Below, one piece after another: positions 4,470 through 60,512 of a DNA stretch of 64,000 nucleotides. A model generated the notes under the pieces. The model was not told the DNA's origin and made no database searches. It was given only the letters and a program-made list of their open reading frames with translations. Within the stretch, counting starts at the first letter, position 1; every line of letters starts with the position of its first letter. The stretch is from Olsenella porci (GTDB taxonomy: Bacteria; Actinomycetota; Coriobacteriia; Coriobacteriales; Atopobiaceae). The DNA is taken from contig NZ_VUNC01000006.1 of assembly GCF_009695875.1 (NCBI RefSeq), positions 62,001 through 126,000 of the forward strand, in the 5' to 3' direction. A program made the translations under genes and the position numbers.

Positions 4470-4584
4470 CCAAGGCCCCCCGGTGCCGTCACCCTCCCAT
4501 CTCGGGGGGACGTGTTCCCATCGTGTTACGTGACCGCCGTCCGCCCGGCGGTCCGCCATTCGCCGGTGCTACTCTCACCCCACT

Positions 4585-4741
4585 GATAGAGGAGCGGACA
4601 CGAAGGGCGCGGTGGAGCTGGCAGGCTGCGAAACCGCGCGAGGCGAGGTCCGCCGAACTGGGGGTGGGGGCACCCTTCCCCGGTGGGCGTACGGGAAACA
4701 CCCGTGCGACTGTCCGCGCACCACCGCGCGGGTGAGCTATC
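4585..4741 (+). promoter_or_regulatory. Lysine riboswitch (L box)
   Basis: The gap between dapL and lysA carries a lysine-sensing aptamer. The 5' strand GATAGAGG-AGCGGAC at 4585 and the 3' strand GAGCTATC ending at 4741 close a P1 helix (GATAG with CTATC). Between them are the conserved blocks seen in known L boxes: GCCGAA (about 4651-4656), TGGGCGT, GGGAAACACCC and GACTGTC (about 4708-4714), each followed by locally self-complementary arms. No U-rich terminator follows, so control is probably translational: TCTTCC at 4764-4769 can pair with the lysA ribosome site GGGAGA at 4799-4804. The family assignment is established knowledge applied to the visible motifs; the off-mechanism is inference. 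Confidence 0.9.
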
Positions 4742-4813
4742 TTACCGGGGTGCCAGGCTCGCCTCTTCCGTAAGGTCGCAAACTCGCCGACACGACCCGG
4801 GAGATGATTCCAC

Positions 4814-58020: not shown

Positions 58021-58974
58021 ATGGACCTGGACCGTGCATGCCAGGAGTACCTCGGCTACCTTGCGGTCGAGCGGGGGTACTCGCACAACACCATAGATTC
58101 GTACGCGCGCGACATCAAACGCTACCTGGCGTTTCTTGCCGCGCGCGGCATATCTCGGCCCGAGGGTGTGACCAGGGAGGACGTGGTCGACCACATCCAG
58201 TCCCTTGAGGAGTCCGGGCTCGCCCCCTCCTCGGTCAAGCGCGCCGTCTCGGCCATAAAGGGCTTCCACCGGTTCATGGTGGTGGAGCAGATCTGCGAGA
58301 ACCACCCCACGGCGGACGTCCCTCTCCCCAAGGAGCCAGAACGCCTGCCCGACGTCCTCTCGCGCGAGGACGTGTTCCGTCTCCTCGACGTCCCCTTTGC
58401 CGTGGAGCCAAAGCCCAAGCCCCGCAAGGGAGGGGAGCCCGACCGCACCAACGTCGCGGCCTTCCACCGGGACAAGGCGATCCTGGAGGTCCTGTACGGG
58501 TGCGGGCTCAGGGTGTCGGAGCTCTGTGGGCTGGACCTTGCCGACGTCTCGTTTGAGGACGAGATGCTGCGGGTGACGGGCAAGGGCTCAAAGGAGCGCA
58601 TCGTTCCCATCATGGGTACGGCGCTCCGGGCGTTGCGGCTCTATGTGGAAGAGTGGCGGGCCGTCCTCTGCGCGCACGGGAGCCGACCGTGTCCCGCGGT
58701 GTTCGCGAGCGCCCGTGGGACCCGCATCACGCGGCAGGCGGTTCACTCCCTTGTGGAGCGGTACGGGAAGATGGTGGGGATAGAGGGCCTGCACCCGCAC
58801 ACCCTGAGGCACAGTTACGCCACCCATCTCCTGGAGGGTGGCATGGACCTGCGCGTGGTGCAGGAGCTGCTGGGGCACGCCTCCGTCGCGACCACGCAGC
58901 TCTACACCCACATCGACCGCACGCACGTGCGCATGACCTACCTGGCCGCCCATCCGCGCGCGAGGCTGGGGTAG
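58021..58974 (+). CDS. xerD: Site-specific tyrosine recombinase XerD
   Basis: A 317-residue tyrosine recombinase with an N-terminal SAM-like core-binding domain ([16 protein letters not shown]) and all catalytic residues in place: R164 (CGLRVSEL), K188 (GKGSKER), H260 and R263 (HPHTLRHS), H286 (LGHAS) and Y295 (TQLYTH). XerC/D resolve chromosome dimers at dif. A ~25-residue insertion ([14 protein letters not shown]) between the two domains is longer than usual. It is encoded 12 bp after pyrG. Confidence 0.92.
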
Positions 58975-59072: not shown

Positions 59073-59499
59073 ACCCCTACGACAACGGAGTTCCATGGCG
59101 GACGTTCGTACCGTCTTTCGATGGGACGTCCTCCCACCGGTGCGAGCCCGCCCCGCGCTGGCGGACGGCTGGTGGCATCGATTTGGTGGGGGAGAGGGAC
59201 CGCGCCAGGTGCTTTGGGGGGAATCCGACTGGGGCGGCCCCATTCCTTGGCGCACGGCATGCATCTCACCGGGCGAGCAACCGGGCTGGGGTGGATCGGG
59301 CACCTGTGGGGGCACGGGAAAAGAAGGGTCCGGGTGTGCCCCATGCCCCATGCGGGTGCCGCAGCTGCTTTCGCTGCGGCATGGGTAGTTGGCATCGGGG
59401 TTCGAATATGGTGGGGGACGTGCGAAGACCTCGATCCCACGCTGGTCCCCGGGAGGCACGCTGAACGCCTCCCTGCCTCATGCGGTTTTGGCCCACGCC
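59073..59499. other. Gene-free stretch with strong hairpins
   Basis: No reading frame here has credible codon use or homology. Two hairpins stand out. At 59347-59385, CCCAT...ATGGG outside and GCCGCAGC/GCTGCGGC inside form a 13-bp interrupted stem with a 7-base loop. At 59451-59473, GGGAGGC and GCCTCCC pair around 9 bases. Either could be a terminator of the xerD transcript or part of a structured RNA. I checked for RNase P RNA, tmRNA and tRNA signatures and saw none. Confidence 0.5.
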
Positions 59500-59650
59500 T
59501 GCTTAGCGATGCTAGGCCTCGTGGAGTTTGGGGTTCCGTCTGCTTAGCGATGCCTGGCCTCGTGCGGGTTTTCGGCGAAAACCCGCACGAGCGCTAGCGC
59601 GGCTAAACATCCCGGCCCGGAATCGACACGAGGGCTAGCATGACTAAGCA
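59500..59650. repeat. Symmetric array of four 24-bp inverted repeats with a central hairpin
   Basis: Four copies of a 24-bp unit (TGCTTAG..GC..G..CTCGTG, 15 positions invariant) lie at 59500-59523 and 59541-59564 (plus) and 59586-59609 and 59627-59650 (minus). Both pairs have a 41-bp period, and the whole is symmetric about base 59575. The centre is a perfect 15-bp stem (CTCGTGCGGGTTTTC with GAAAACCCGCACGAG) around a GGC loop. The spacers between units are not conserved, so the units themselves are under selection or were copied. It resembles a REP/BIME cluster or a small non-autonomous mobile element; no open reading frame is inside. Confidence 0.8.
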
Positions 59651-59975
59651 GGTGCAGCTTCACGGTGGGACGCCCTTCCACCCCGCGTGGGAATCCCTCC
59701 CACAAGCCGAAGGGAGCCATTCTCGCCGTCCAACATTCTCTCCCACCGCCGTCCCACGCTGCTTCCCAAATGGCGCCAAAGGGTGGGTGGGTACTCCTGC
59801 GAAAGAGAGAAATAAGCCCATCTACCTGCGTAAATGACTCTGACCTGCGGCTTCACCAACCCTTCACAATCCCCCTTTCAACCTAGCGCGCGGGCGGTCG
59901 CTCCCTTGTGGTGCGAACGCGTGTTTCCACGAGATGTGGGGCCGCTTGGAAACCTATCAGACCCCCAGGACGAAA
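59651..59975 (+). other. Upstream spacer of the dcw cluster
   Basis: No gene is seen. The sequence is notably rich in GTGGG and CCCAC pentamers (for example near 59664, 59696, 59739, 59753, 59784 and 59788), which echo the MraZ-box core, but they are not regularly spaced like the sites at 59988-60012. Confidence 0.3.
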
Positions 59976-60083: not shown

Positions 60084-60512
60084 ATGTACCTTACTGGCAC
60101 CTTCCAGCACAATCTGGATGCCAAGTCCCGTCTGACCCTTCCTGCCTCGTTTCGCAAGCAGGTGGGCGACACGGTCTGCCTGGTGCCCCTCGACGACGCG
60201 ATCTACGGCTTCACCCCCGAGAGCCACAAGGCTTGGGTGTCCAGCTTCTTCCCCCAGGGGCTCAACCCCCGCAACAGGAGGGACGTGCAGCTGCACAGCC
60301 TGCTCATGCGTCGCACCGTCACGGTGGAGGTCGACTCCGCGGGGCGGATCGCACTGGGCAAGGTCAGCGCAGAGGCGCTCCAGAAGCTGGGAATCGAGCG
60401 CGAGGTCACGGTCATCGGCAACGACGACCACTTCGAGATCTGGTCCGCCGCCGCGTTCAAGGCGATGGACGAGCAGATCGAGAGCCTCGACGACCTCATG
60501 TTCGACGACTAG
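60084..60512 (+). CDS. mraZ: Transcriptional regulator MraZ
   Basis: The 142-residue protein has two SpoVT-AbrB-like halves. The first starts MYLTGTFQHNLDAKSRLTLP and the second has VEVDSAGRIALGK, each with the DxxxR DNA-contact pattern. MraZ is a ring-forming repressor of the dcw operon. The ATG follows AAGGGGAGGAGGGG. GTGGG-type operators lie 72-96 bp upstream. rsmH follows after 19 bp. Confidence 0.95.
   Translation: MYLTGTFQHNLDAKSRLTLPASFRKQVGDTVCLVPLDDAIYGFTPESHKAWVSSFFPQGLNPRNRRDVQLHSLLMRRTVTVEVDSAGRIALGKVSAEALQKLGIEREVTVIGNDDHFEIWSAAAFKAMDEQIESLDDLMFDD

Follow-up and report, generated by a model that had tools for sequence, protein, structure and literature searches.

Phased direct repeats to which one protein binds cooperatively are known from iterated centromere and operator arrays such as parC, tubC and iterons, of which a replicon has a single locus or a few. 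Genomes with REP and BIME elements carry more than 100 of these short intergenic units, which form clusters with regular spacing, occur in both orientations and lie mostly in gaps between convergent or tandem genes and rarely in divergent ones (PMC3733652, PMC2817692, PMC1525189). In Cluster A mycobacteriophages, one protein binds asymmetric sites, the stoperators, and stops transcription elongation (PMC9283540); these are 13-bp sites in the phage genome, oriented with transcription. The repeat array between an xerD-like gene and mraZ of Olsenella porci shares traits with each of these systems. Like parC, tubC and iterons, it consists of phased direct repeats, for which cooperative binding by one protein is putative, but there are about 31 dyad-centred arrays on this chromosome. 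As in the stoperators, asymmetric sites lie over short gaps and the directional logic that we propose is similar, whereas the sites are ~30 bp long, sit on a bacterial chromosome and are grouped into pairs of converging arrays, and a repressor is known for the stoperators only. Our best reading is that the arrays are lineage-specific, BIME-like, bidirectional putative protein-binding arrays at gene ends, with both the presumed binder and its effect proposed from the patterns described below.

The window, a stretch of 64,000 nucleotides, contains three matches to the unit pattern where shuffled sequences predict none, and the features of the locus are listed in Table 1. Four units (two direct and two inverted) at 59500–59650 with a 41-bp period in both arms match the coordinates of the preliminary description, and its count of 15 invariant positions of 24 among the four units and the symmetry of the array about 59575 were reproduced from the sequence. 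The central hairpin that it noted is also present, with 15 bp around a 3-nt loop or, equivalently, 16 bp around a 1-nt centre; its halves (59559–59574 and 59576–59591) are made up of the inner spacer and the tails of the two units beside it. This hairpin is peculiar to the xerD-mraZ array and not a family feature, since 10 of 10 central pairs form here compared with 1–7 of 10–11 in the 25 other centres among the 26 compared. The conserved part of unit 1 extends to about 59529, and a degenerate fifth unit at 59459 lies exactly 41 bp outward of unit 1.

Table 1. Features of the xerD-mraZ locus (window coordinates).
Feature	Position	Strand	Remark
Degenerate outermost unit, cap-like subtype, CGCTGAACGCCTCCCTGCCTCATG	59459..59482	+	4-5 mismatches to two unit consensuses
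Unit 1, TGCTTAGCGATGCTAGGCCTCGTG	59500..59523	+	0 mismatches to consensus
Unit 2, innermost direct	59541..59564	+	2 mismatches; 41 bp from unit 1
Unit 3, innermost inverted	59586..59609	-	2 mismatches; centre spacing 45 bp from unit 2
Unit 4, outer inverted	59627..59650	-	1 mismatch; 41 bp from unit 3
Perfect central inverted repeat	59559..59591	.	16-bp arms, 1-nt centre at 59575
xerD-like tyrosine recombinase gene	58021..58974	+	ORF; upstream of array
mraZ, first gene of division cluster	60084..60512	+	ORF; 434 bp downstream of array

The 3′ end of the xerD-like gene is 485 bp from the outermost unit; its product has Olsenella relatives at 67–68% identity, and the xerD-mraZ gene order is the same in relatives. 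The gap also holds short palindromes of the form GTGGGA-n5-TCCCAC (window 59121–59137, 59665–59681 and 59687–59703). Palindromes resembling them lie upstream of mraZ in the relatives G006 (L122) and G055 (L152), so this gap may have them as a conserved element. Elsewhere in the window there is a lysine riboswitch (4579–4747).

We used the unit as a query against the window's own genome (2,362,135 bases, or 2.36 Mb, in 15 contigs, 99% complete). Allowing up to two mismatches, we obtained 129 matches compared with 27 for the reversed control, and a tighter pattern gave 117 compared with 8. Reading of 6-kb stretches around the matches delimited about 31 array places with 149 units, one of which is the xerD-mraZ array; the dispersed copies by which the preliminary description proposed to recognize a mobile or REP element are thus present genome-wide. 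The unit is asymmetric and ~30 bp long (TGCTTARYnnnnCTAGSCCTCRTGyGGATT), with a conserved core, TGCTTARYnnnnCTAGSCCTCRTG, followed by yGGATT, so that conservation runs ~6 bp beyond the 24-mer, at a level inflated by the gathering of the units by consensus. Nearly all arrays consist of 1–5 direct units followed by 1–4 inverted units; two arms that belong to one array often hold different numbers of units and always converge. A few arrays are one-armed and one place holds a solitary unit. Spacing within arms is exactly 41 bp in 78 of 92 cases and 40 or 42 bp in the remainder, and the centre spacing is 45–47 bp. One array walk admitted only spacings of 40–42 bp, and an unconstrained scan, in which spacings are 40–42 bp and centres 45–47 bp, and the autocorrelation of 7-mers, which peaks at 41 bp (241 pairs compared with about 17 expected), give the same period. 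In a second subtype TTYCCC replaces CTAG; 13 of its 16 occurrences are outermost in an arm (13 of 50 outer units compared with 2 of the 92 others, p = 2e-5), which suggests an ordered array anatomy.

Gene context was assigned from codon-based gene calls and tRNA genes. The gaps that hold arrays separate 12 convergent, 18 tandem and 1 divergent gene pairs. As a circular genome has equal numbers of convergent and divergent gaps, the excess of convergent over divergent ones is significant (p = 0.0017), and the arrays avoid promoter-only gaps and are biased to the 3′ ends of genes. The genes beside the arrays, identified by eye from their sequences, have ordinary housekeeping functions (enolase, S-adenosylmethionine synthetase, phosphoketolase, signal recognition GTPase); others are tRNA genes. 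The arrays are thus tied to no single pathway. At L054:2625–3582, a tandem duplication of about 529 bp includes tRNA-Cys, tRNA-Gly and part of an array.

The 3′-end bias would also be expected of an RNA element, in which the converging arms would give the transcript of either strand one long hairpin, to end transcription or to shield the 3′ ends of mRNA, and single arrays do reach folding energies of −90 to −148 kcal/mol as RNA on either strand. Base pairing is not what is conserved, however. At variable positions mirror units match at 0.30, compared with 0.31 between units of different arrays, and mirror spacers likewise do not share letters, indicating that beyond the consensus the arms are not kept complementary. 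Within the unit, the inner dyad is mismatched at pair 2–16 (C-C in 76 of 149 units) and at pair 3–15 (T-G in 126 of 149). We therefore rejected a long RNA stem between the arms, in which mirror positions, those of loops and spacers included, show no covariation. The RNA reading is further weakened by a single consensus common to all arrays, which pairing does not need, by the often unequal arms and by the absence of any match to Rfam families at the arrays. T-run terminators were found in 6 of 35 array-strands, too few for the arrays to serve as intrinsic terminators, a role that we also rejected. Altogether, we consider an RNA element unlikely.

Spacer positions 30–40 have an identity between arrays of 0.34, near the background set by base composition, while spacing is held to within ±1 bp, a combination that points to selection on phasing. 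Taken together, the kept unit and spacing, the drift of the spacers and the lack of a pairing constraint favour recognition of double-stranded DNA by a putative protein at fixed phase, which would fit the sequences better than a conserved stem. Some observations count against this reading. Short stems in the spacers are mildly in excess (mean longest stem 3.01, compared with 2.70±0.07 in column shuffles), which pure protein phasing leaves unexplained and which an RNA element would account for. Hairpins in the spacers were considered and rejected, column-pair covariation in the 41-bp register being near chance (best dyad register z = 2.1). About a third of array-facing gene ends (13 of 35, compared with 3 expected) have an intrinsic terminator of their own ahead of the array, which likewise counts against the reading. 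Furthermore, ~15 bits would suffice to mark 149 sites and the unit carries twice that, about 33 bits, which could stem from shared descent as well as from binding, and adjacent units in one arm are slightly alike (z = 3.7 over 4 loop positions), indicating that some local duplication has happened.

A second explanation is that the arrays are functionless relics of old non-autonomous mobile repeats of REP/BIME or MITE type, which spread in the lineage and whose transposase was lost. It draws on the scatter of about 149 copies between the genes of one genome and no other, the gene-end position as in REPs (PMC3733652), the surplus of information in the unit and the palindromic repeats that a close relative, G006, has dispersed in its own genome. 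Against it, the 99% complete genome yielded no match to a Y1/RAYT transposase (PF01797), for which control genomes were positive. This absence alone is not decisive, because a dedicated transposase is missing for CGTC-type REPs as well (PMC3733652). Flanks are little shared (in the strongest case two loci agree at 73% over 137 bp, the other cases being tRNA genes or short) and thus give no support to the small non-autonomous transposon that had been proposed as well. Finally, spacers at background level between units that are kept at 41 bp are unlike neutral relics. We regard the relic explanation as possible but rather improbable.

In detail, the arrays resemble REPs and BIMEs in the number, clustering, regular spacing and double orientation of their intergenic units and in the mostly convergent or tandem gaps. 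Insertion sequences target REPs (PMC1525189), and one array has an IS481-like copy. The differences concern construction: the unit consensus, drawn from 127–149 copies, has neither a GTAG nor a CGTC tag, no stem-loop is kept by pairing among the 149 units, and two converging blocks of direct units in a strict 41-bp phase with drifting spacers take the place of regularly spaced alternating units. As tag, stem, RAYT gene and alternating units are all lacking, we do not file the arrays as REPs, even if they may work like them; of the BIME-like cluster first suggested for this locus, dispersal and gene-end position hold, while transposase, tag and conserved stem do not. A transposase gene beside the array on contig C13 was considered as a partner and rejected, since it belongs to an IS481-like insertion into an array unit. 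The element, at L155:3209 (the end of C12) and L060:1–606 (the start of C13), has inverted ends TGTTGTGTGCCA/TGGCACACAACA and a 6-bp target duplication, CTTAGC. It leaves one array divided between the two contigs, and its position inside a single unit shows that C12 and C13 are neighbours.

With one mismatch allowed, we searched 140 genomes from the family and 398 from the class, both sets including the window's own genome and the genus being represented by one genome. Arrays were found in the window's own genome only; among the 397 other class genomes, six had one chance-like match each. A two-unit phased pattern gave no match in the GTDB representatives, where the own genome may be absent, and scans of viral sequences (IMG/VR) and plasmids returned nothing useful. 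A detector for the same architecture with another motif, applied to three relatives, recovers only 1 of the 31 known arrays. We found no paper on such repeats in Olsenella or Coriobacteriia.

The xerD-mraZ gap of relatives has no comparable array, contrary to the conservation at this locus in sister genera that a regulatory or chromosome-maintenance site would predict. Together with the dispersed copies, this leads away from a locus-specific regulatory site for mraZ or the division genes. Such a site would suit an array 434 bp upstream of mraZ and is contradicted by about 30 other arrays beside unrelated genes; we give it practically no credence. The landing pad for a dimeric protein in front of the division cluster that had been envisaged fits unit and phasing best of the early proposals, but its link to division is wrong. 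Relatives do carry repeats of their own. The one nearest by its MraZ locus, G006, has dispersed perfect palindromes, CACCTGCAAGTGACATGTCACTTGCAGGTG and GTGTCACAAAAGTGACTGACACTTTTGTGACAC (L129:6720, L124:11593 and 11711, L133:5122). In the Olsenella MAG RGIG8828, xerD is directly followed by a 31-bp tandem array (L080:5048–5335), and the xerD-mraZ gap of Olsenella phocaeensis holds two 50-bp repeats with TTGTCGG...CCGACAA ends (L096:992–1115 / L084:4423–4546). In that of G119 (L106:690–800) there is a long, imperfect, MITE-like inverted repeat, GAAACCT..CTTAGTAGCA / TGCTACTAAG..AGGTTTC.

We give about an even chance to the arrays being a lineage-specific family of convergent, helically phased, putative protein-binding arrays in the gaps between genes. 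Because 41 bp is about four helical turns, all sites in one arm would face the same side of the helix, with the two arms converging on a centre of constant length. A dedicated DNA-binding protein would occupy 2–4 sites of each arm; the complex so formed would be symmetric and would work bidirectionally at transcription-unit 3′ ends, as a boundary to transcription or supercoiling. Such a role is of the kind proposed for BIMEs and would be attained here with a different unit.

Asymmetric ~30-bp sites in opposed arms at gene ends could also be polar barriers that stop replication forks arriving from both sides. Consistent with this, no arrays were found in the first 266 kb of contig C1, which bears the parS cluster that marks the origin (at 156 kb), a weak effect (p = 0.025). 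Arrays nevertheless lie on most large contigs and not just near the terminus, and a search of the genome found no relatives of RTP (PF02334) or Tus (PF05472), which makes fork barriers very improbable.

Dispersed repeats at gene ends are usually treated as mobile palindromes. A family of arrays that, with neither palindrome, tag nor transposase, keeps its unit, its spacing and its convergence while the spacers drift points instead to function. Tentatively, and as the less probable outcome, two-armed phased arrays with a dedicated binder and cap units may represent a new type of bacterial bidirectional boundary, a barrier to transcription or supercoils at gene ends that would be unrelated to REP and RAYT.
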